DNA of 64,000 bases from Bacteriovorax sp. Its GTDB lineage: Bacteria > Bdellovibrionota > Bacteriovoracia > Bacteriovoracales > Bacteriovoracaceae. The stretch is taken from assembly GCA_014377485.1 (NCBI GenBank), contig JACMPM010000053.1, positions 1 to 64,000 of the forward strand, in the 5' to 3' direction. Both the position numbers and the translations under genes were made by a program. The notes beneath the pieces are model-generated. The model worked only from the letters and a program-made list of their open reading frames with translations, searched no databases and was not told the DNA's origin. Below, in pieces: positions 41,204 to 55,603 of this stretch (position 1 is the first letter of the stretch; each line of letters starts with the position of its first letter).

Positions 41204-42133
41204 ATGCTGAATGATAATTTTTATTACTCGTTTTCGAGTGATGCTCAAAATGAAATTTATGATTATATAAAATCATTACATGTTTATAATAGAATCGAAG
41301 ATGCAAAAATTCTAGATTCTGAAGATTGTCCGACTTTTAAATATGAAATGGAAGAAGTTCGAAATGAACTTGAAAATGGAAAACGTATTGTTATTGTAAA
41401 ACCATTTATTGACCTACAAAACAAATATACAATTTTAGAACAAAGAACTATTCACTGGTTAATGGGAAATATTTTGGGCGAAACTCTTGTTCAAAACGAA
41501 GCCGGCGATAGAGCGATCTTAGTGTACGATCGCGATAGAACGAATTCTATGACCAAAGGTGCTCGCTATCATCAAACTCGCGAAGGCGGAACAATCCATA
41601 CTGATAACGTAAATGTTCCATTTAAATGGGAATACCTTTTACTCGCTTGCATTGCTCCAGCCATGGCAGGAGGAGAAAATATTTTAGTTAATGCATTAAA
41701 CGTTCTTAAAATATTAAAACAAAAACATCCTGACGTTCTGGCAATCCTTGAAAAGAATTTCTTTTGGGAACAGCGTGGAGTGGCCGAAGCAACTTATGAA
41801 GCTCCAATCATTACTTACAATCAAAAAGGCGAACCAGAATTCCGTCATCTTCGTCCTTATATGGAATCGGCCCATAATAAATTAGATCGTCCTTTAACAG
41901 ACGAGCAAATGTATTCGCTAGATACATTGGATGCCATTTTGGAGCATTCGGACAATCAGTACCGTCACTCATTTGAAGCCGGTGAAATACTTCTTACGTA
42001 CGATGCTCAAGTTCTTCACGGGCGCACTTGTTTTTCAGACGATATGAATGCAGTCGTCATTCACGATTGGATAAAAGACCATAACAAGCCATTGAAGAGA
42101 ACGATGGATCGTATTTGGGCAAAGAAACGATAA
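41204..42133 (+). CDS. TauD/PhnY-like Fe(II)/2-oxoglutarate-dependent dioxygenase
   Basis: HxD motif 'GGTIHTDNVNVPFKWEYLLLACI', distal His/Arg 'YDAQVLHGRTCF'; first gene of a tight phosphonate operon. Confidence 0.75.
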   Translation: MLNDNFYYSFSSDAQNEIYDYIKSLHVYNRIEDAKILDSEDCPTFKYEMEEVRNELENGKRIVIVKPFIDLQNKYTILEQRTIHWLMGNILGETLVQNEAGDRAILVYDRDRTNSMTKGARYHQTREGGTIHTDNVNVPFKWEYLLLACIAPAMAGGENILVNALNVLKILKQKHPDVLAILEKNFFWEQRGVAEATYEAPIITYNQKGEPEFRHLRPYMESAHNKLDRPLTDEQMYSLDTLDAILEHSDNQYRHSFEAGEILLTYDAQVLHGRTCFSDDMNAVVIHDWIKDHNKPLKRTMDRIWAKKR

Positions 42134-42152
42134 ATATCCTAAAAGGAAGTAT

Positions 42153-42896
42153 ATGTCACAACTAACAGCACTTATTTTGGCCGCAGGGTATGGCTCACGC
42201 ATTTCGGATGTGACTGATGACCCAAAAAGTTTATTGCAAATAAATGGAAAATCATTAATGGACTGGCATTTCGAAGCTTGGAAAGAAGTAGGAATTCGAA
42301 ACGTCGTTGTGGTTACAGGTTATAAGCGCGATGTACTTGAAGCTTATCTTGAAAAATACAAAATGGATTTTGATATTCATTATGCTGTCAACGAAGATTA
42401 CCGAGTTAAAGGAAACACTTATTCATTTCTTTACGGTCTAGAAAAAACGCAAGGTGATTTTTTATTGTTCGATGCAGATCTTATCTACGATACTAAAATC
42501 TTAAAAAGTTTCATCGAGGATATTACGCCTAATCAAATCCTGGTCGGAGAGAGTTCAATCGATGATATCGAATGCGCAAAAACTATGATCGACGAAGATG
42601 GATTTGTCCGCATGACGATTGATAAGCGTGCAGTCTCTGAAGAAGAACGCAAGCGTTTTACGTTTGCTGGAGAAGCTATTGGAATATTGAAATTCTCAGA
42701 AGCATTTAGAGACGATATGTACAATGCCTGTAAAAGTTTTCTTGCGGACGAAAAAAATATTTCAAAAAACTGGGAACATGTCATGAATGAGTTTTTACTC
42801 AATCACGATATGAGTATACACCAAGCATTCAGTGACCGCTGGGTAGAGATCGATAATAAAGAAGACTTGGAAAAAGCTAAAAGATTATTTAAATGA
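42153..42896 (+). CDS. Nucleotidyltransferase (LicC/PntC-type cytidylyltransferase candidate)
   Basis: 'ALILAAGYGSRISDVTDDPKSLLQINGKSLMDW', 'DADLIYDTKIL', 'WVEIDNKEDLEKA'. Confidence 0.83.
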   Translation: MSQLTALILAAGYGSRISDVTDDPKSLLQINGKSLMDWHFEAWKEVGIRNVVVVTGYKRDVLEAYLEKYKMDFDIHYAVNEDYRVKGNTYSFLYGLEKTQGDFLLFDADLIYDTKILKSFIEDITPNQILVGESSIDDIECAKTMIDEDGFVRMTIDKRAVSEEERKRFTFAGEAIGILKFSEAFRDDMYNACKSFLADEKNISKNWEHVMNEFLLNHDMSIHQAFSDRWVEIDNKEDLEKAKRLFK

Positions 42897-43762
42897 ATTG
42901 GCTTAAAGAATATAAATTATCTCTTAAAAACCTGCACGCCGAAGAGCCTCTTGACGTCTATTTTTATAGACCTCTGGCTTTTATAGTTGTTAAGACATTT
43001 TACTCACTACCTATTACTCCAAATCAATATTCTCTTTTAGCTCTTCTTTCAGGAATAGCTTCTGGATATAATTTGTTAAAGGGAACCTCTCAGAGTTTTA
43101 AATGGGGTGCCTTTTACTTCCTGCTTTTTGCTATTCTGGATTGTTGTGACGGAATGGTTGCAAGACTCAAGAAAAATGGAACTGAATTTGGCCGTCTGAT
43201 TGATGGTGTGGTTGATTATACAGTTAACGTCATTGTTTATGTAACCCTTGCTCTTGGATTAAAAAAACAATACTCCCCGGATTTATTTCAGCCGTGGTTG
43301 TTAGTTATAGTGGCCGGAGTTTCAAAAGCAATCCATTCGATTTCTTATGATCATTACCTTACTGAGTATTTGTCATATGAAAAAGGAGACGGAGGTTTTG
43401 TTGTTAGAGAAATTGAAGACCTAAGAGGTAGACTGGATGAGAGCGAAAAATCAAATGCATCTTATATTCGCCGTTTGGCATTAAAGCTATACTTAGGATA
43501 TTCAAGTATTCAGGCCGGTAATCAAGAACGCATCTTAGTTTTTAATCCACGTCTGTATTGTGAAAAAAATCTTCGCGCTCTGAAAATGTGGTCTTTTGTT
43601 GGTCCTGCTGTTCATATTTCAGTTTTAATCATCTCTTGTATCTTGAATGAGCCTTATCTTCTTTTCTTTTATTCAGTTGTCTTTGGTAGTTTATGGTTGA
43701 TTATGATGTTCATTTATCAATTCAAAATTAATCAGGAATTGTCTGAGGAAAAAGCAGCATGA
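42893..43762 (+). CDS. CDP-alcohol phosphotransferase family membrane protein
   Basis: Exact DGxxAR(x8)GxxxDxxxD motif: 'DGMVARLKKNGTEFGRLIDGVVD'; multiple TM segments. Confidence 0.9.
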   Translation: MNWLKEYKLSLKNLHAEEPLDVYFYRPLAFIVVKTFYSLPITPNQYSLLALLSGIASGYNLLKGTSQSFKWGAFYFLLFAILDCCDGMVARLKKNGTEFGRLIDGVVDYTVNVIVYVTLALGLKKQYSPDLFQPWLLVIVAGVSKAIHSISYDHYLTEYLSYEKGDGGFVVREIEDLRGRLDESEKSNASYIRRLALKLYLGYSSIQAGNQERILVFNPRLYCEKNLRALKMWSFVGPAVHISVLIISCILNEPYLLFFYSVVFGSLWLIMMFIYQFKINQELSEEKAA

Positions 43763-44397
43763 TTATCGCCTTGATCATTGGTTTAATTACAGGTTTTCTT
43801 ATCTGCATTCCGGTCGGACCGATCAATGTGTGGGTTGTGAATACTCTGATCAAACACGATTTTAAATCAGCTTTTGCCATTGCTCTTGGTGGATCCCTGA
43901 TGGATTTCATTTATTTCATGGTGATCTTAAGTGGGCTTTCACTATTTCATTTTTCACCAAAGACAATTCTGATCTTGAAGATCGTGGGAGTCGTCTTCTT
44001 GCTGGCTTTTGGACTTAAAGAATTGTTTTTTCAAAAGCAAAATTTTGTCTTGGATAAGGATATAAAAAAGAAAGAGCCAACTGTGTTTGCATTTTTTCTT
44101 TTAGGTGTAGCAATCTATTCTTCAAATCCAACTCTTGTTGCAACAATGTCTGGCTTGGCAGCAGTGATCAAATCATGGAATCTTTTTCCAAACGTTTATC
44201 GTAGTTATTTTGCTCTTTCGTTTGGACTAGCTGTGGGATCTGCTTCTTGGTTTTACATACTATTAAGAATTGTAAAAAAATATCAAAATAAAATCCCAGA
44301 AAGATTTTTTATTAATTTCAGTCGTGCCTGTGGGGCCCTAATTGTCCTCTTTAGTCTCTATATGGCATTTAATGTTTATAAGGAAAACTTTGTATGA
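43759..44397 (+). CDS. LysE/RhtB-family exporter
   Basis: '[46 protein letters not shown]', multiple TM segments. Confidence 0.8.
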
Positions 44398-46031
44398 AAA
44401 AACCTATTATCAAAAAAACAACTCAACTAAGAAATATGTTGAATTCAAATGAACTAGAATTTTTAATGGAAGCGCATAATGGAATGTCTGCGAAGATTGC
44501 CGAAGAAGCAGGATTTAAAGGTATTTGGGGTTCTGGACTTTCTATTTCTGCGGCTCTGGGAGTTCGTGATAATAACGAAGCTTCATGGACTCAAGTTTTA
44601 GAAGTTGTAGAATTTATGAGTGATGCGACGACTATTCCTATCCTTCTTGATGGTGACACTGGTTACGGTAACTTTAATAATATGAGAAGACTCGTCACAA
44701 AACTTGAGCAACGCGGAGTTGCCGGTGTTTGTATCGAAGATAAAATTTTTCCTAAGACAAATTCATTTCTTCGTACTGAAGCTCAGCCTTTAGCTGACAT
44801 GGATGAATTTTGTGGAAAAATTAAAGCAGGTCAGGACACTAAACTTGATAGTGATTTTAATATTATCGCAAGAGTTGAAGCTCTGATTGCAGGATGGGGA
44901 ATGGGAGAGGCGCTAAAAAGAGCTGATGCTTATCGCCTGGCCGGAGCAAATGGAATACTAATGCACTCAAAAATTTCTAAGCCAGATGAAATTCTAGCTT
45001 TCATGAAAGAATGGGGAGAAAGAAGTAAATTGTGTCCGATCGTTATCGTTCCAACAAAATATTACGCAACTCCGACAAATGCTTTTAGAGAAGCTAATAT
45101 CTCTGTTTGTATCTGGGCCAATCACCAAATGAGAATGGCGGTAACGGCAATGCAAAGTGTAACGAAGACTATCTTTGAAGAGCAATCTTTAATGAATGTG
45201 GAAGATAAGATCGTTTCTGTTGCAGAACTCTTTCGTCTTCAAAATGATAAAGAACTTGAAGCTGCAGAAAAATTGTATTTATCAGTTGCCGACGCTGATA
45301 AACCAAGAGCTATTTTCTTAGCTGCTTCTAGAGGAGCAGAACTTAAGGAATTAACTGAAGACAAACCAAAAGTTCTAATCGATATAAATGGGAAGCCTTT
45401 AATTGAGCAATCAATTAATACTTTCTACGAACATAATATCAAAGATATTTCAATCGTTCGTGGATATAAAAAAGAGGCATTCAAACTTCAAAATATTAAA
45501 TATTTTGATAATGATAATTTCGAAACGACAAGTGAGCTTTCTTCGCTTTTCTTAGCGAAAAAAGAAATAGCTGATCATGTCGTTATTTCTTACGGTGATA
45601 TTCTTTTTAGAAAATATATTCTCTCTCGCTTATTAGAAGAAAAAGGTGACATTACAATTGTAGTTGATGCTGCTATTAGCGATCGAGCTCCAAGTTACAC
45701 AGGAGACTTTGTTCTTTGCTCGCGTCCTCATAGTAATATTTACAGTGAAGCTCCAGCGGAACTTAAAGGAATTGCTTTCGGTAAAGCCGGAGAAAACAAA
45801 GAAGTTCAAGGTGAGTGGATTGGTCTAATGAAAACAAATAAAGTTGGTTCAGAAGTGCTTTCTAAAACGTTGGAAGAACTTTCTCAATCTCCCGACTTTA
45901 GTAAATTAAAACTTCCAGATCTTATGAATAAACTTCTTGAGAAAAAAGTAAAAATTAATGTCATGTATATTGATGGTCATTGGCTAGATGTAGATAATTA
46001 TGCTGACGTTTCACGCGGTCAGAAATTTTAA
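44394..46031 (+). CDS. pepM: Phosphoenolpyruvate mutase fused to C-terminal nucleotidyltransferase-like domain
   Basis: PepM signature EDKx5NS ('[10 protein letters not shown]'), 'DGDTGYGN'; C-terminal '[35 protein letters not shown]...[16 protein letters not shown]'. Confidence 0.94.
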
Positions 46032-46046
46032 TTTAAAGAGGATCTT

Positions 46047-47204
46047 ATGATATCAGCAGATAAGTTTTTAACACCGGCCAGAGAGCTTGGGTTTAATTTT
46101 TTTACAGGAACACCTTGTTCTTACCTAAAACCATTTATTAACTATGTTATTGACACAGACGGTTTCGATTTCATAGATAGTGTAAACGAAGGTGAAGCGG
46201 TAGCAATCGCAGCGGGAGCAACAGTCGCTGGTAAGCGCGCTGTCGTTATGTTTCAAAACTCAGGTTTGGGAAATGCGGTTAATCCGCTTACTTCATTAAC
46301 TTATACTTTTAATATACCGGTAATGGTGATTACGACTTTAAGAGGAGAGCCAGGTGGAGCTCACGATGAACCACAGCATGAGTTGATGGGACAAATCACA
46401 ACTGAGCTTCTTGAGACAATGAGAATGAAATGGGCTTTTTTTCCAAATACTGAAGCAGATGTTATGCCAGCTTTAAAATTGGCCGATGATTATATGAAAT
46501 CAACAAATCAGCCATTTGTTTTTGTGATGAGAAAAGATGATATCTCTGATTACAAACTCCAGAAGAAACCAGCAGTTTCGCAAAAAGTACTTTCAGTAAA
46601 TCATTCCGATCTATTCGAACTTGGCTATAAAGAACGCACAACCAGGACTCCTGTTCTTGAAGTGATTCAAAAAGAATTGGGACAAGACGTGGCAGTGATA
46701 GCGACTACTGGAAAAACTGGACGTGAGCTATACGAAGTCGGCGATCTTAAAAATCAATTTTACATGGTTGGTTCAATGGGTTGTGCATTAGCTTTTGGCC
46801 TGGGCATTGCTCTTGTGAAACCAAAGTTAAAAGTTGTGGTTATTGATGGTGATGGTGCACTTTTAATGAGAACCGGAACTATGGCAACGGTTGGTGCTTA
46901 CCGTCCGAATAATTTAGTTCATATATTAATTGATAACGAAGCTCATGATTCAACTGGTGGTCAAGGGACAGTTACGGGCGGAATTTCATTTGGTGCCGTA
47001 GCCCTGGGATTTGGTTATGAACAAGTTTACTCAACTGATAAACTAGAGGCTTTTAAAAACATACTTGGTGTAGTTAAAAATTCAAAATCATCTACTTTTA
47101 TACATTTGAAAACTCAAAAGGGTTCACCAGAAAAACTCGGAAGACCTAAAGTTACTCCTGCTGAAGTAAGTCTTCGTTTTGCGGAATTTGTTCAGTCTAA
47201 ATAA
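46047..47204 (+). CDS. ppd: Phosphonopyruvate decarboxylase
   Basis: ThDP-dependent enzyme: 'FFTGTPCSYLKPFINYVI', 'NEGEAVAIAAGA', 'DGDGALLMRTGTMATVGAYRPNNLVHILIDNEAHDSTGGQGT'; directly follows pepM. Confidence 0.94.
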   Translation: MISADKFLTPARELGFNFFTGTPCSYLKPFINYVIDTDGFDFIDSVNEGEAVAIAAGATVAGKRAVVMFQNSGLGNAVNPLTSLTYTFNIPVMVITTLRGEPGGAHDEPQHELMGQITTELLETMRMKWAFFPNTEADVMPALKLADDYMKSTNQPFVFVMRKDDISDYKLQKKPAVSQKVLSVNHSDLFELGYKERTTRTPVLEVIQKELGQDVAVIATTGKTGRELYEVGDLKNQFYMVGSMGCALAFGLGIALVKPKLKVVVIDGDGALLMRTGTMATVGAYRPNNLVHILIDNEAHDSTGGQGTVTGGISFGAVALGFGYEQVYSTDKLEAFKNILGVVKNSKSSTFIHLKTQKGSPEKLGRPKVTPAEVSLRFAEFVQSK

Positions 47205-47220
47205 TGATTAATATTTTGCT

Positions 47221-47246
47221 CGGCAGGAGTAATTCTGCCGATTTTT
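47221..47246 (+). terminator. Intrinsic terminator after ppd
   Basis: CGGCAG-gagtaatt-CTGCCG followed by ATTTTT. Confidence 0.82.
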
Positions 47247-47386
47247 CTAAAAAAAAACTTTCATCTTCTATTTTAATACCTGTTCAAATTAATACAAAAT
47301 TTTTTCGTCTACTCTTTAGACTTTTGAATGCCTTTTTATTGAGTTAGAATTATCACTCGTATAAGAATGAATTTTTAGGAGAAACC

Positions 47387-49369
47387 ATGTTTATTCAGTT
47401 AGTACTATTGTCGAGTCTGTTATGTGCCACCAGCTCATTTGGGGCCTCAAGTGAAATACCTTTGAAGAGAGAATTTCCGCTCAATGATAAAATAAATCCA
47501 TGTGAAAATCTTTATGAACATGCCTGTTCAAAGACCATTGAAAGTTTTCAATTGCGTGCTGATCGCCGTAGGCATTCATTTGCTTTTAGTGATTCGGCAG
47601 AACGCATTCTTGAATTTAAAAAGAATTACATAAAAGACCTAACTTCTAAAGAAGCTGATTCGCCGGTCTCTGGTCAAATTAAAAACTTTTATCTTTCTTG
47701 TATGAATAAAGATGCAAGAGCTAAAGAAGAGACAAATGAAATTCAAAAATTGATGGATGATCAGAAAAAAATAACAGATAAAAAAGAATGGTTTAAAACT
47801 CAAGCCGGAAAAATTCATAGCGGTAAGAGTGGTTTTATTGGTTACTCTACGAATGATAATTTTGATGATGCAAGAAAATCAGATTTAATGTTGGGAGTTG
47901 GCTATTCCTTACTACCTGAAAAAAGTTATGCGAAAAATGAAGTATTGATTAAGGCCCTTGCTGTCCTTGTTACTGATTTTTTCAAAACGATTGGCGCAGA
48001 CCATCCGGAAGAGAGGGCTAAAACAGTTCTTAAGTATGAGATAGATCAACAAGACAATCGCTTCTTTCCTGTTGAGGCGCGAATTGCTTACTCGCTAAGA
48101 AGATTCGTTACTAAAAAAGAATTGTTAAAAAAATATCCCGATCTTCAATTAAACGTTTTCCTGAGTCAAATACCGGAAGCGACTTTTATTAGGAATATGA
48201 ATCCTAAAACAATACCTTTCCTTAATAAAATAGCTAAAACTTATTCACTTGATGAACTTAAAACATTAGAAATGTTTTATGAACTTAGATCAAAGTTAGA
48301 TCAGGGTTATCCTACATTTTATGATGAAGCTTTTGTTTTCGCTAATAAATTTCTTGGCGGTAAGAATAAAAGATCTGAGTTAGATGAAGAATGTACAACT
48401 TTAACCATGCATCGTTTTGGGGCAGAGTTTGACTACCTTGTATTGCCAAAGATGTTTCCAAACTTCTCATCAGAAAAGGTAGCGGATCTCGTTGGAAAAA
48501 TTAAAAAGAGTATCTTAGCATCTTTATCTAAGAACACCTGGCTATCTCCTACTGCTAAAAAAGAAGCGGAAAGAAAAATTTCAACAGCTTTTATGCGCTT
48601 AGTTTCACCTCAAAATTTTACTGACTGGAAATTTTTACCTACAGCTGCTTATGGAAAAGATACATATCTGGCCAATATTGAAAAACGCAATGGGATATCT
48701 GAGACCAGAGAATTTAAGTTTTTTAGAGAGTTGAAAGATATTCGTTCATGGGAGGGAGTTGAGCCATTAGAAGTAAATGCATTCTATCAACCTTCTTATA
48801 ATCAATTCACAATGCTTCAAGGGATTTTACAGTACCCATTTTATGATCAAAAAAGCTCTGAGATTGAAAACCTTGCAGGAGTTGGGATGGTCGTAGGGCA
48901 TGAACTTGGTCACGCCATTGATGATCAAGGATCAAAATACGATGCAGATGGAAAATTAAGAGACTGGATGACAGCCAAGGATCTTGTAAAGTTTAAAGAG
49001 TTAACAAAATCTTTAATTGAGCAATACTCAAAAGCAGGAATGAATGGGGAATATACACTTGGCGAAAATATTGGTGACCTCGTGGGATTGAATGCTGCTT
49101 ACGATGCTGCATTTTCAACCGACAATACTGCATCTGCTTCAGACTTAAAGTCACAGAAGAAAAATTTCTTTTTAAACTATGCTCGTTCATGGTGTGAGGT
49201 TCAACTCCCAGGAGTTAGAGATTTACGATTAAAATCTGATCCGCATTCACTAGGAGTTGCGAGAGTAAACGAGGTCGTAAAACACTTTGCTAGCTTTAAG
49301 GAAGCATTCGATTGCAAGGATAGTGATCCTATGATCTTTTCGGCCGAGCAAAGAGTGCATATCTGGTAA
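47387..49369 (+). CDS. M13-family (neprilysin-like) zinc metallopeptidase
   Basis: 'VGHELGHAIDDQGSKYDADGKLRDWMT' (HExxH), 'GENIGDLVGL', 'NAFYQPSYN', signal peptide. Confidence 0.93.
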   Translation: MFIQLVLLSSLLCATSSFGASSEIPLKREFPLNDKINPCENLYEHACSKTIESFQLRADRRRHSFAFSDSAERILEFKKNYIKDLTSKEADSPVSGQIKNFYLSCMNKDARAKEETNEIQKLMDDQKKITDKKEWFKTQAGKIHSGKSGFIGYSTNDNFDDARKSDLMLGVGYSLLPEKSYAKNEVLIKALAVLVTDFFKTIGADHPEERAKTVLKYEIDQQDNRFFPVEARIAYSLRRFVTKKELLKKYPDLQLNVFLSQIPEATFIRNMNPKTIPFLNKIAKTYSLDELKTLEMFYELRSKLDQGYPTFYDEAFVFANKFLGGKNKRSELDEECTTLTMHRFGAEFDYLVLPKMFPNFSSEKVADLVGKIKKSILASLSKNTWLSPTAKKEAERKISTAFMRLVSPQNFTDWKFLPTAAYGKDTYLANIEKRNGISETREFKFFRELKDIRSWEGVEPLEVNAFYQPSYNQFTMLQGILQYPFYDQKSSEIENLAGVGMVVGHELGHAIDDQGSKYDADGKLRDWMTAKDLVKFKELTKSLIEQYSKAGMNGEYTLGENIGDLVGLNAAYDAAFSTDNTASASDLKSQKKNFFLNYARSWCEVQLPGVRDLRLKSDPHSLGVARVNEVVKHFASFKEAFDCKDSDPMIFSAEQRVHIW

Positions 49370-49389
49370 TATTTAATGATGAGGTTTTT

Positions 49390-50502
49390 ATGAAACAAGT
49401 TAAGAGAAATATTCTTCTTAATCCTGGACCTGCAACTACAACTGATACTGTAAAAAACGCAATGGTTGTTCCCGATATTTGTCCTCGCGAATTAGAGTTT
49501 GGTGAACTGACACTTTCAGTACGTAATGATCTAATTCGAGCTGCTTATGGTGAAAAAAATCACACTTGTGTAATGCTTACTTCTTCTGGGACAGGTGGAG
49601 TTGAAGCTTGTTTAACTTCAGTTGTTCCTCATAATCAAAAAGTTTTGATTTTAAACAATGGCGCTTACGGTGAGAGAATGCAAAAAATCTGTGACGCTTA
49701 TAGCGTTGAGCACGTAGATTATAACCAGGAGTGGGGACGCCCGCTGGACCTGAATGCAGTCGAAGAACTTCTCAAGCAACATGCAGGTGTTATTTCCCAT
49801 TTAGCCTTTATTCACCACGAAACAACTGTGGGTATCTTAAATCCACTCAGTGAAATATCCACACTTTCTCAAAAATATGAAGTTGAGACGATTGTCGATG
49901 CTATGTCTTCGTTCGCCGGGATGATGATCAATGTAGAAAAAGACAATATTCATTACCTCGTTTCTTCATCAAACAAATGTATTCAAGGGATGGCGGGAAT
50001 TAGTTTTGTAATAGCTAATACTAAGTCGCTCCTAAAAACCAAAGAAATTAAAGCTCGTAATTTTTATTTTAATTTACTTGAAAATCATCTTTATCTGGAA
50101 AAAAACAAGCAATTCCTTTTTACTCCTCCAGTACAAACACTCTATGCTTTACGCCAAGCTGTGACCGAATACTTTGAAGAAGGCGCTGAGAATAGATTTG
50201 CTCGCTATGCTTCATTATATGAAATTATGAAGAAAAAAGTTGTCGAGCTAGGTTTTGAATTTTTAATAGAAGAAAAATATCATGCTAAATTATTGACGGC
50301 CATAATGGATCCAAAAAATCCAGCATACTCATTCAATGAAATGCACGATTATTTATTTGATAGAGGATTCACTATTTATCCGGGGAAAGTGGGAAATAAA
50401 AATACTTTTAGACTTTCTAATATTGGGGCGATATATCCCAAAGACATGGAAGATTTTTTAATAGTATTTGAAGAATATCTTCGTATTAAAAAAATAATCT
50501 AA
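49390..50502 (+). CDS. phnW: 2-aminoethylphosphonate--pyruvate transaminase-like aminotransferase
   Basis: 'ILLNPGPATTTDTVKNAMVVPDICPRELEFGEL', PLP lysine 'VSSSNKCIQGMAGISFV'. Confidence 0.9.
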   Translation: MKQVKRNILLNPGPATTTDTVKNAMVVPDICPRELEFGELTLSVRNDLIRAAYGEKNHTCVMLTSSGTGGVEACLTSVVPHNQKVLILNNGAYGERMQKICDAYSVEHVDYNQEWGRPLDLNAVEELLKQHAGVISHLAFIHHETTVGILNPLSEISTLSQKYEVETIVDAMSSFAGMMINVEKDNIHYLVSSSNKCIQGMAGISFVIANTKSLLKTKEIKARNFYFNLLENHLYLEKNKQFLFTPPVQTLYALRQAVTEYFEEGAENRFARYASLYEIMKKKVVELGFEFLIEEKYHAKLLTAIMDPKNPAYSFNEMHDYLFDRGFTIYPGKVGNKNTFRLSNIGAIYPKDMEDFLIVFEEYLRIKKII

Positions 50503-51521: not shown

Positions 51522-52508
51522 TTGATGAAGATCCTTTTGGCATCGCTTTTATTTATTTATGCGACTCTTGTTTTTGCCTACGAGCGCGAATTCATTGTCA
51601 CAGATATAATAAGCGACCAAAGTTTACAGATTCAGCGAATTGATAAACAGATTGAAGTTGCCCCAGGTGATATTCTTGCAATTTATTCTCATCAAACGAA
51701 GCTTGTACTTGGCTATGCCAGAGTCGCTTCAATCACAGATAGTTCTGATTTTTTTATTGCTATCATTGAAACTCATAATAAAAATGGCCTCATTCGACCA
51801 GAAAACTATTTACGCAAATTAGACTTAACAAAAATCAATAATGATATTCCGGCTCGCTATGATCTAACCTATAGAGCTGAAAGCAACGTCGCTGCAAAAT
51901 ATCGACCGTTAGTTTATGCGGGATTAGTTCAAGGAATGACGGCATCCAATTTAAATAAAAAGGAATGGATTTTAGGACCTTCGGTTTTGGCCTATGGACT
52001 AACATCTAGAACCCAATTGGATATTAATTTGGCATCGGCTATTTTTGGAGTGGCCAATTTAGCAGTTAAAAATAAATTGATTGATAATGATGATTACGAA
52101 CTCTCTGTTGAAAATGGTTTTCAATATTATCACACGAGTAAAAAAGGTTCTTATCAGTTTACTGGAAATTTAGACATGGCCTCTAATTCTAATTTCAAAT
52201 CGTACGCCAAGTTTAAATTATTTACTAAAAAGCCTGAAGATCAATCTCTTAACAACAGCGAAGAGTATACTCGCGATTTAAACCTGGAATTACAATTTTC
52301 TTATGGATATATTTTCTCTAACTGGAATCAGTTAATCTTTGGACCAAAGATTGATGTTAATAAAAAAAATGTTGGAGGTGTCGTTGCGTATTATATCGTA
52401 GAAAAAAATATCAATACCATGTTTGGTGTTTCTTCTACTGATTTTTCAGAATTACGTCTGGGAAAACAAGCCTATCTTGTCAATTTAGATTTTTGGTGGA
52501 GATTTTAA
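51522..52508 (+). CDS. Putative outer membrane protein
   Basis: Signal peptide, beta-barrel-like pattern ending 'QAYLVNLDFWWRF'. Confidence 0.5.
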   Translation: MMKILLASLLFIYATLVFAYEREFIVTDIISDQSLQIQRIDKQIEVAPGDILAIYSHQTKLVLGYARVASITDSSDFFIAIIETHNKNGLIRPENYLRKLDLTKINNDIPARYDLTYRAESNVAAKYRPLVYAGLVQGMTASNLNKKEWILGPSVLAYGLTSRTQLDINLASAIFGVANLAVKNKLIDNDDYELSVENGFQYYHTSKKGSYQFTGNLDMASNSNFKSYAKFKLFTKKPEDQSLNNSEEYTRDLNLELQFSYGYIFSNWNQLIFGPKIDVNKKNVGGVVAYYIVEKNINTMFGVSSTDFSELRLGKQAYLVNLDFWWRF

Positions 52509-53185
52509 AATCTTATATCTTGAAATGTTTTTACCTGGTCATGTCCAGAATAAGGAATATCTTCCAGGCGCACTAATTGAATTGTTTTAAATCCTACTTT
52601 TTTCGCAGCTTCTAATTCTTCTGAAATATCCGAGAGGAAAATAATTTCAGCTGGATGAATATTTAACTTAAGACTTATATTTCGATATGAATTTTCTTCG
52701 CGTTTAGGTCCGATAGAAGTATCAAAGTTGTTGGAAATAAAACAATTGAGATCGCCATAGATTGAGTATCCAAATAGATCTCTTTGCGCTTCTATAGAGC
52801 CAGATGAGTAGATCCCAAGAGTAATATTGGCACTATGCCATTTTTCTAAAGCCTCTGGAACATCTTGATAGACATGACCTTTGAGTTCTCCTGAAAGGTA
52901 GCCTTCACTCCAGATCAAACCCTGAAGTTTTTTAAGCGCAGGATGTTTACGGTCTATTTTAACCCATTCGATTAATTGTGCGATTGATTGTTCGTCATTT
53001 AATTGAATTTGATTCTCTAGAGCTGTCGTCTGTTTAGTTTCAGCTATAATGTTTTTTATTTGCTCTTCATTTTTATGTGTATTGATATAAGTCGAAATTC
53101 GATCTTTAGAGTAAGGAAATAAAATGTCGTGAACAAAACTAATCGAAGTTGTTGTCCCTTCGATATCCATTAAAATATATTTCAT
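52505..53185 (-). CDS. mtnC: Enolase-phosphatase E1 (acireductone synthase)
   Basis: 'MDIEGTTTSISFVHDILFPYS', 'GLIWSEGYLSGELKGHVYQDVPEALEKWH', 'GIYSSGSIEAQRDLFGYS'. Confidence 0.95.
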   Translation of the reverse strand: MKYILMDIEGTTTSISFVHDILFPYSKDRISTYINTHKNEEQIKNIIAETKQTTALENQIQLNDEQSIAQLIEWVKIDRKHPALKKLQGLIWSEGYLSGELKGHVYQDVPEALEKWHSANITLGIYSSGSIEAQRDLFGYSIYGDLNCFISNNFDTSIGPKREENSYRNISLKLNIHPAEIIFLSDISEELEAAKKVGFKTIQLVRLEDIPYSGHDQVKTFQDIRF

Positions 53186-53715
53186 AAGGTGTGTGAATTG
53201 TTATAGTTTTGATCCACTCCAGAGTCGGTATAATTAGCAACCCAGCCGTCCATATTTGTAAAAATTCTAATGGCCTTTACGAAATATCCAGGAGCAAGGT
53301 CAAACCAGTGACGGAAATTTTTTGGCACAGACATAAAGTCCCCACGCTCACAAGTTACACAAAGAATTTCTTCATTGTCCAAGTGAAACCAAAATTTACC
53401 TTGGCCATCGACAAAAAAACGTATCTCATCTTCGCTATGAGTGTGCTCTTTCATGAATTTTTCTCTTATCGCCATTAGGTTTTCTGTAAGTGGATGAACA
53501 TTGATAACGTCGGCCGTGGCGTAACCATTTTTATCCATGAAAGGCTTTAATTCATGGGCGTAAGCATCTAGAATGGCTTCTTGGCTTGCATCGTTTGCTA
53601 AAAGCTTTGAAGCTTCCCATTGTGCAATCATGATACCATGTTGTGATAATAAATTTTGAATTGTTTTAAAATCTGTTATCGTAATATTTTCTTTTGCTTT
53701 TAATAGTGTAGCCAT
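53182..53715 (-). CDS. mtnD: Acireductone dioxygenase
   Basis: 'FMKEHTHSEDEIRFFVDGQGKFWFHLD...VPKNFRHWFDLAPGYFVKAIRIF' (HxHxxxxE...H). Confidence 0.95.
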   Translation of the reverse strand: MATLLKAKENITITDFKTIQNLLSQHGIMIAQWEASKLLANDASQEAILDAYAHELKPFMDKNGYATADVINVHPLTENLMAIREKFMKEHTHSEDEIRFFVDGQGKFWFHLDNEEILCVTCERGDFMSVPKNFRHWFDLAPGYFVKAIRIFTNMDGWVANYTDSGVDQNYNNSHTL

Positions 53716-54362
53716 TAATTACCTCTGCGAGAATTTAAGTAGTATTTGAAAATATATTCAAAAACTTCCAAGTGTCTTTTGGCTTCTTCAACACTATCGC
53801 CCCAAACGTAAACGCCATGGCCTCGAAGTAGAAGTCCGTAATTATTTTTTTGTTGTAAGATTGAGGGTTTAATTTGTTCTGCCAATAAAGCGATGTCTTG
53901 AGTATTATCAAAACAGGGAATATTAATTTTTAAGTCGTGAGTTTTAATTCCTTTAAAACCTTTTAAAAGTTCAAGTCCTTCTATAGTTGCGTAGGGAAGA
54001 CCTGTAAAAAGATCGGCAAATAAAAGTGAGTCTAATAAATGACTATGTAGAACACAGTTTGCATTTGTTATTTGATAAATGCTTAAGTGAATATCAGTTT
54101 CGTCAGATGACTTTCGACCGGATTTAATATAATCAGGAAGCATTATTCTTGTTTCGAAATAAATAGGTAGAAAATTGTCTTCAGTAAATTTACTTTTATC
54201 AATGCCCGATTCTGAAACGAGGGCAATGTCTGGACTGGTTTTTGAACGTAAAGAGTAGTTGCCGCTGGTCGCAGGATTATGGCCCATACTATTCATCACC
54301 CGAACAAGTGAGGCCAGTTTTTTCATTTCTTCGTAATCTTGAGCACTAATGATAAAGGACAC
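53715..54362 (-). CDS. mtnB: Methylthioribulose-1-phosphate dehydratase
   Basis: Class II aldolase fold: 'GHNPATSGNYSLRS', 'VLHSHLLDSLLFADL', 'LLLRGHGVYVWGDSVEEAKRHLEVFEYIFKYYL'. Confidence 0.93.
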   Translation of the reverse strand: MSFIISAQDYEEMKKLASLVRVMNSMGHNPATSGNYSLRSKTSPDIALVSESGIDKSKFTEDNFLPIYFETRIMLPDYIKSGRKSSDETDIHLSIYQITNANCVLHSHLLDSLLFADLFTGLPYATIEGLELLKGFKGIKTHDLKINIPCFDNTQDIALLAEQIKPSILQQKNNYGLLLRGHGVYVWGDSVEEAKRHLEVFEYIFKYYLNSRRGN

Positions 54363-54442
54363 AACGTTCCTGGGTAAAAGTATTTACTCTATATATTAAA
54401 TCTTGCTATAAAAGACAAAAAAAATATCCTCAAAGGACGATA

Positions 54443-55603
54443 ATGAAGCCAATAAATCATACTGTGATAGAATTTAAGGAATCGATCTTCTCCACTATGA
54501 CTAAGCTCGCGATTGATCATGAAGCAATCAACCTCTCACAGGGCTTTCCAGACTTTGACGGACCTAAATGGATTATAGACCTTGCTAAGAATGCCATGGA
54601 TCAAGGACATAAATTAGGCAATGTTGGGAAAAATCAATATGCTCCATCAGCAGGAATACTTCCTTTGAGAGAAGCGATCTCAAAGAATTATAAACGTTTT
54701 TACAATCTTGATTTTGATTCTGCTAATGAGGTTGTCGTTACAAATGGTGCCACTGAGGCTATCTTTTGTGCATGCATGGCGCTCATTAATCCAGGTGATG
54801 AGGTTATAGTTTTTGAGCCATTTTATGATTCTTATTTAGCTTCATTAAAAATGGCCGGGGCAATCGTGGTGCCAGTTACTTTGAAGGCACCAGCTTTTAC
54901 TTTTGATAGTGAAGAACTTATTGCTGCCATTAATTCAAAAACCAAAATGCTTATTTTGAATAACCCTCATAATCCAACAGGAAAAATTTTTACACGAGAA
55001 GAAATCAAGATCATTGCTGAGCTCGCTCGAAAATTTGATTTTTATATTTTATCAGATGAAGTTTATGAGTTTTTAACTTTTGAAAATAGTCATACTCCAA
55101 CTGCGTGTTTTGAAGACCTGGCCAATAGAACAATCACCATTTCATCGACCGGAAAAACCTTTGGCTTAACCGGATGGAAAATTGGTTGGGCCTGTGGTCC
55201 AAAAGAAATCATTAAGGCCATTCACAACGTTCATCAATTCACAACTTTTTGCGTGGCCCATCCGCTGCAAGTGGCAATGGCAGAAGCTCTAGGAAAGATG
55301 GATGATTATTTAATTAATTTTAAAAGTCAGTACCGTGCAAAAAGAGATTATTTAGTCTCTGGCTTAAAAAATGCAGGTTTTAATGTGTTAACTCCCGCTG
55401 GAACATATTTTGCCATGGCGATATTAAAGGAAGGCGAAAACGATATTGAATTTTGTCAGAAACTTATTCGAGAAAAGAAAGTTGCGGTCATTCCGACTTC
55501 AGCTTTTTATATAAAATCCAACGCCGGAAGTGGAATGATTCGTTTTTGTTTTGCAAAGACTGATGAGACACTTAAAAAAGCCATTAGTAATTTAGCTTTA
55601 TAA
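54443..55603 (+). CDS. mtnE: Class I aminotransferase, probable methionine (KMTB) aminotransferase
   Basis: 'AINLSQGFPDFDGP', 'LNNPHNPTGKIF', 'SSTGKTFGLTGWKIGW'; adjacent to mtnBDC. Confidence 0.8.
   Translation: MKPINHTVIEFKESIFSTMTKLAIDHEAINLSQGFPDFDGPKWIIDLAKNAMDQGHKLGNVGKNQYAPSAGILPLREAISKNYKRFYNLDFDSANEVVVTNGATEAIFCACMALINPGDEVIVFEPFYDSYLASLKMAGAIVVPVTLKAPAFTFDSEELIAAINSKTKMLILNNPHNPTGKIFTREEIKIIAELARKFDFYILSDEVYEFLTFENSHTPTACFEDLANRTITISSTGKTFGLTGWKIGWACGPKEIIKAIHNVHQFTTFCVAHPLQVAMAEALGKMDDYLINFKSQYRAKRDYLVSGLKNAGFNVLTPAGTYFAMAILKEGENDIEFCQKLIREKKVAVIPTSAFYIKSNAGSGMIRFCFAKTDETLKKAISNLAL

Follow-up and report, generated by a model that had tools for sequence, protein, structure and literature searches.

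Sphingophosphonolipids with a 1-hydroxy-2-aminoethylphosphonate head group have been described from Bdellovibrio (Bacteriovorax) stolpii (Watanabe 2001 and Jayasimhulu 2007, cited through PMC8154272, PMC6148460 and PMC5648825). The literature that we searched assigns no gene set to this lipid, which was described in 2001. Two described gene systems are among the closest. In the Pnt pathway of Treponema denticola and Atopobium rimae (PMC6697681), phosphoenolpyruvate (PEP) mutase (PepM), phosphonopyruvate decarboxylase (Ppd) and 2-aminoethylphosphonate (AEP) transaminase (AEPT) are joined by a PntC-type cytidylyltransferase. Phosphonate clusters of Nostoc (PMC5987646) comprise the same enzyme classes as considered here, including a CDP-alcohol phosphatidyltransferase and a 2-oxoglutarate (2OG)-Fe(II) oxidase, and HAEP is among the abbreviations of that paper; the pathway in it is adapted from Yu et al. 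2013. Here we describe a locus at positions 41204-50502 of a 64,000-nucleotide stretch of Bacteriovorax sp. DNA (GenBank assembly GCA_014377485.1, contig JACMPM010000053.1, positions 1 to 64,000 of the forward strand; hereafter the window), from an organism of the same family as B. stolpii, the Bacteriovoracaceae. The window lies on contig 142 of a 3.95-Mb assembly that we call G000; other G numbers denote relatives and L numbers denote loci.

We propose that this locus is likely to be the head-group branch of a pathway to a sphingophosphonolipid bearing 1-hydroxy-2-aminoethylphosphonate. Its genes all lie on the forward strand and encode, in order, an Fe(II)/2OG dioxygenase of the TauD family (41204-42133; PF02668, E 9.8e-20), a stand-alone PntC-like nucleotidyltransferase (42153-42896; PF12804, NTP_transf_3), an integral membrane CDP-alcohol phosphotransferase (42893-43762; PF01066, CDP-OH_P_transf), a LysE-family membrane protein (43759-44397; PF01810, E 1.5e-17), PepM with a C-terminal nucleotidyltransferase-like domain (44394-46031; PEP_mutase and NTP_transf_3, TIGR02320), the TPP enzyme Ppd (46047-47204; TIGR03297) and, further downstream, AEPT of the Aminotran_5 family (49390-50502; TIGR03301). 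The open reading frames, their directions, the family calls and the 4-bp overlaps at 42893, 43759 and 44394 given in an initial annotation of this DNA were each recovered from the open reading frame list and from Pfam and NCBIfam.

In the proposed pathway PepM would convert PEP to phosphonopyruvate, Ppd would decarboxylate this to phosphonoacetaldehyde and AEPT would convert the aldehyde to AEP. The stand-alone nucleotidyltransferase would activate AEP as CMP-AEP, and the membrane phosphotransferase would then move the phosphonyl group from CMP to the primary hydroxyl of ceramide, supplied by an unlinked operon with serine palmitoyltransferase (SPT), bCerS-like and CerR-like genes. Hydroxylation of C1 of the AEP unit by the dioxygenase, at the AEP, CMP-AEP or lipid stage, would complete the 1-hydroxy-2-aminoethylphosphonate head group, and the LysE protein is a possible translocator of the lipid or of a precursor. 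What we observed is which genes are present, how they are conserved and co-occur, their motifs, the ceramide genes, and the positional link between these and the phosphotransferase; from this we infer all of the substrates, whether hydroxylation precedes or follows transfer, and the existence of the lipid. The predicted product, ceramide carrying hydroxylated AEP, matches the lipid known from B. stolpii.

The biosynthetic PepM, Ppd and AEPT set named in the initial annotation was present, with all three proteins above their curated NCBIfam cut-offs (PepM, TIGR02320, 391 bits against 320; Ppd, TIGR03297, 415 bits against 313; AEPT, TIGR03301, 413 bits against 361); the dioxygenase, the stand-alone nucleotidyltransferase, the phosphotransferase and the LysE protein are assigned at the family level. 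The window PepM carries the active-site motif EDKX5NS, as does every orthologous PepM spanning that region, and its best match in the PDB is the PEP mutase 1m1b (E 3.9e-129). A locus with these genes could also serve the synthesis of a small-molecule phosphonate or the catabolism of AEP, given that a LysE-type exporter could release a soluble phosphonate and that the AEPT-like enzyme PhnW is also degradative. However, PepM and Ppd are biosynthetic, and phosphonoacetaldehyde hydrolase (PhnX), noted earlier as missing from the neighbourhood, gave no match above cut-off in 14 genomes of the genus; a catabolic PhnWX or PhnY*Z pathway was rejected. In addition, a membrane phosphotransferase with a full CAPT motif belongs to the operon of all dioxygenase-bearing genera, apart from G005, where it is relocated, and G003, a fragmented assembly in which it was not found. 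The small-molecule role was rejected as well, and we regard either use of the locus as highly improbable.

The stand-alone nucleotidyltransferase supports the CMP-AEP activation step predicted earlier, as its best match in the PDB is the CMP-AEP-forming enzyme Tde-PntC (6pd1/6pd2, E 8.8e-14). Its motif GYGSRISDVTDDPK agrees with the PntC consensus GXG(T/S)RX4-8PK, which is present in 18 of 19 orthologues (G018 deviates). Fusion of PepM to a second nucleotidyltransferase domain, as in the window, is also known from the Pnt clusters of oral anaerobes (PMC6697681). This fused domain lacks the glycine-rich PntC consensus in the window protein and in all orthologues compared, and the stand-alone protein is therefore the likelier CMP-AEP synthase. 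We propose it as a candidate CTP:AEP cytidylyltransferase.

CMP-AEP could in principle be directed to a glycan instead of a lipid. For most clusters of the Pnt type the predicted role is the tailoring of glycans or lipids at the cell surface, and the T. denticola and A. rimae Pnt clusters, which have LicD/glycosyltransferase genes, are predicted to feed glycans (PMC6697681); AEP might likewise decorate a surface polysaccharide, with the phosphotransferase acting on a sugar or a polyprenol-linked acceptor. One relative, G028 (locus L158), does carry PepM, Ppd, nucleotidyltransferase and AEPT genes amid polysaccharide genes. It is the sole PepM-positive genome without the dioxygenase, however, and its locus has no CDP-alcohol phosphotransferase; the window has both genes, which set it apart from the Pnt clusters, and the phosphotransferase is its proposed acceptor enzyme. 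Neither the window locus nor any of the contiguous operons in G057, G107 and G068 contains a LicD, glycosyltransferase or polysaccharide gene. The comparison of G028 with the dioxygenase-bearing operons is a natural contrast between an apparent glycan use and an apparent lipid use of AEP, and a phosphonoglycan seems very unlikely as the product of the window locus.

We next consider the acceptor. The initial annotation had pointed to SPT as a gene to look for in the rest of the genome, and it was found on contig 88 of G000 within a ceramide operon. The best solved relatives of this protein are Sphingobacterium SPT (E 2e-108), and its gene neighbours encode a GNAT acyltransferase, an SDR reductase, a PAP2 protein and a fatty-acid hydroxylase; we take the GNAT and SDR genes beside SPT to be the bCerS/CerR arrangement. 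Across 130 family genomes, SPT is present in all 21 that are PepM-positive versus 54 of the other 109 (Fisher's test, p 3e-6 by genome; 8/8 versus 25/40 by genus, p = 0.044).

The positions of genes in relatives are stronger evidence than this co-occurrence. The phosphotransferase gene missing from the phosphonate operon of G005 lies on contig 35 of that genome, where its neighbours are a second bCerS-like gene on one side and, on the other, a desaturase gene with the sphingolipid delta-4-desaturase signature PF08557. A PF08557 delta-4-desaturase gene also stands directly upstream of lysE-pepM-ppd in G003, and another lies within the SPT operon of G101. The phosphotransferase therefore appears to travel with ceramide genes, which points to ceramide as its acceptor. 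The CAPT motif DX2DGX2ARX8GX3DX3D is complete in 19 of 19 phosphotransferase orthologues, and a structure model of the window protein is multi-helical (pLDDT 84) and matches AF2299. At the level of the CAPT domain class the protein resembles Drosophila CPES, a membrane enzyme that sets a precedent for the making of a ceramide head group by a CAPT-domain protein (PMC9550178) and shares the motif D(X)2DG(X)2(A/Y)R(X)8-16G(X)3D(X)3D, although CPES is eukaryotic and transfers phosphate rather than phosphonate. The lipid-directed phosphotransferase of the initial annotation thus has a full catalytic motif and a positional link to ceramide genes, and we propose it as a candidate CMP-phosphonate:ceramide phosphonotransferase.

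The remaining catalytic component is the dioxygenase, which had initially been described as PhnY-type. PhnY* belongs to the PhyH (phytanoyl-CoA dioxygenase) family. The window protein matched only TauD and CsiD in Pfam and gave no PhyH match. In the literature, moreover, the AEP dioxygenase is PhnY*, PhnY proper being a dehydrogenase (PMC8154272). The analogy to PhnY should be dropped. The nearest characterized proteins are instead FrbJ and TmpA, members of the same Fe/2OG TauD-like superfamily and the best characterized phosphonate-acting relatives found. The best PDB match was FrbJ (5eqn, E 2.5e-14) and the best NCBIfam model was TmpA (44.5 bits, below the cut-off of 400), a similarity so low that it implies no equivalence of substrate. 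The HTD motif and the distal H272 and R274 (HTD...HGR) are conserved in 19 dioxygenase orthologues. The gene is present in 20 of the 21 PepM-positive family genomes, always as the first gene of the pepM operon, and the other 109 genomes hold no close copy and one weak unrelated match.

It is conceivable that the dioxygenase acts on the ceramide part or on some other substrate rather than on the AEP carbon chain, leaving a head group of plain AEP. TauD-family substrates are many, and the TmpA, butyrobetaine and trimethyllysine dioxygenase models gave similarly weak scores for the window protein. A stand-alone paralogue, 42% identical, occurs in G000, G001, G004 and G011; the G000 copy (L164, contig 27, 8945-9889) has neither phosphonate nor lipid genes in its surroundings. 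Set against this are the almost exclusive occurrence of the dioxygenase with pepM, at the head of its operon, and the fact that the nearest solved structure is a phosphonate hydroxylase. Moreover, a separate fatty-acid hydroxylase gene is already available for the ceramide, and the known lipid of the family bears 1-hydroxy-AEP. We consider a plain AEP head group possible but doubtful, and propose that the dioxygenase is a candidate C1-hydroxylase of AEP, CMP-AEP or lipid-AEP. In a further relative, G094 (L218, L224), a phosphotransferase-LysE pair lies next to a gene in which a nucleotidyltransferase is fused to AEPT, the fusion being similar to Tde-PntC. A divergent PepM-Ppd pair is located elsewhere in this genome, which has no dioxygenase; this may be an unhydroxylated version of the pathway.

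The gene order of the locus is widely conserved. Dioxygenase, nucleotidyltransferase, CDP-alcohol phosphotransferase, LysE, PepM and Ppd genes keep this order across the genus, with AEPT a few kb downstream, and other genera of the family repeat the order from dioxygenase to transaminase, with protein identities of 27-75% and intact catalytic motifs. In all, the order is conserved in seven genera of Bacteriovoracaceae, and its recurrence is not chance. The LysE gene is kept in every complete operon except those of G018 and G010. Distance correlations are high for every pair of operon genes (0.83-0.99), which shows co-inheritance and singles out no partner. The named closest relatives are metagenome genomes (Bacteriovorax sp., Bacteriovoracaceae bacterium) with PepM identities of 84-95%, from an octapeptide scan of named genomes; such a scan would miss most PepMs that have diverged as far as those of the family's other genera.

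Several observations weigh against a sphingophosphonolipid assignment. A fold search with the phosphotransferase model returned AF2299, IPCT-DIPPS and PIP synthases, not choline/ethanolamine phosphotransferases, and the fold leaves the acceptor undecided. The ceramide operon is unlinked to the phosphonate locus in G000, many SPT-positive relatives lack PepM, and the weaker association by genus implies that part of the SPT correlation comes from common descent. No characterized enzyme is close to the dioxygenase, whose distances from FrbJ and TmpA do not fix a substrate, and the structure model of this protein (pLDDT 41) was not used. Finally, the lipid of B. stolpii, a species with a known SPT (A7BFV8), is a chemical finding, whereas here such a lipid is predicted from the genes of other family members. 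The unlinked ceramide operon and the PepM-negative genomes with SPT would suit a glycerophosphonolipid, in which the phosphotransferase places AEP, hydroxylated or not, on diacylglycerol and the ceramide genes serve other lipids; diacylglycerol and CDP-diacylglycerol are established as common substrates of CDP-alcohol phosphotransferases. This alternative is at odds with the placement of the phosphotransferase between two ceramide genes in G005, with the delta-4-desaturase adjoining the phosphonate operon in G003, with the presence of SPT in every PepM-positive genome and with the sphingolipid nature of the family's known lipid, and we judge it unlikely. The assignment to a 1-hydroxy-AEP sphingophosphonolipid is further supported in that those genome-level predictions of the initial annotation that were tested all held.

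The transaminase gene, which had been placed at 49.4 kb, is present there, with a detail to be added: a terminator-like hairpin and the gene of an M13-family (neprilysin-like) metallopeptidase (47387-49369, forward strand; PF01431/PF05649) lie between ppd and the AEPT gene. AEPT directly follows ppd in G057, G107 and G068, which represent three other genera, and in G007 of the same genus. The M13 gene is absent from the gap in these four genomes and present in only part of the genus, suggesting that it is an insertion and that the ancestral unit had seven genes; the peptidase was rejected as a pathway member. The hairpin (47220-47241, forward strand; 9 pairs and a T tail, 15 bases 3' of ppd) hints at transcription of the transaminase gene that has become separate from that of the rest of the operon. 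It came from a pattern scan whose overall count was near chance, in which it was the longest stem listed; a promoter scan was at chance level. Further downstream, window positions 52505-55603 hold what by eye is a methionine-salvage-like set (three minus-strand reading frames), followed by a class I aminotransferase.

Related gene sets were seen at other loci. The contig of L033, labelled Cytophagales bacterium, ends in CDP-alcohol phosphotransferase (35%), nucleotidyltransferase (70%), LysE (61%) and PepM (88%) genes in an altered order; the cause is horizontal transfer or else mis-assembly of the bin. A second cluster, in G000 (L198, contig 81, 128000-140041) and G001 (L199, contig 5), contains a paralogous CDP-alcohol phosphotransferase (about 30%) and an NTP_transf_3 protein, and the two loci together also encode a myo-inositol-1-phosphate synthase, a GFO/IDH oxidoreductase, a class III aminotransferase, a HAD protein and an LPG_synthase_TM protein. 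To judge from these genes, the cluster would make a lipid head group of the (amino)inositol type by the logic of the phosphonate locus. In Moorena sp. SIO3H5, a cyanobacterial cluster (L085) has PepM-nucleotidyltransferase, Ppd, AEPT, TauD-like dioxygenase, CDP-alcohol phosphotransferase and nucleotidyltransferase genes; its dioxygenase is 28% identical to that of the window over 172 residues.

The general idea of a phosphonolipid cluster is not new, because clusters of pepM, nucleotidyltransferase, CDP-alcohol phosphatidyltransferase and 2OG oxidase genes in Nostoc have already been read in this way (PMC5987646). The cyanobacterial clusters differ from the window in gene order and protein families, and no ceramide link was found in the text of that paper. 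What is new here is the link to ceramide, the Bacteriovoracaceae gene set and the TauD clade. On balance, we favor the view that these genes are the first set for a bacterial sphingophosphonolipid, found in at least seven Bacteriovoracaceae genera, in which a CDP-alcohol phosphotransferase would place a CMP-activated phosphonate on ceramide and a new TauD-type enzyme would hydroxylate C1. If so, the B. stolpii lipid becomes a testable set of seven genes, and two of the encoded proteins, the dioxygenase and the ceramide phosphonotransferase, would have new enzyme functions. The gene set could also be used to recognize, from their genomes, producers of the phosphonate R-HAEP, whose natural sources are poorly known. 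Phosphonolipids withstand ordinary phospholipases, and such lipids may affect how predators living inside other bacteria protect their own membranes.

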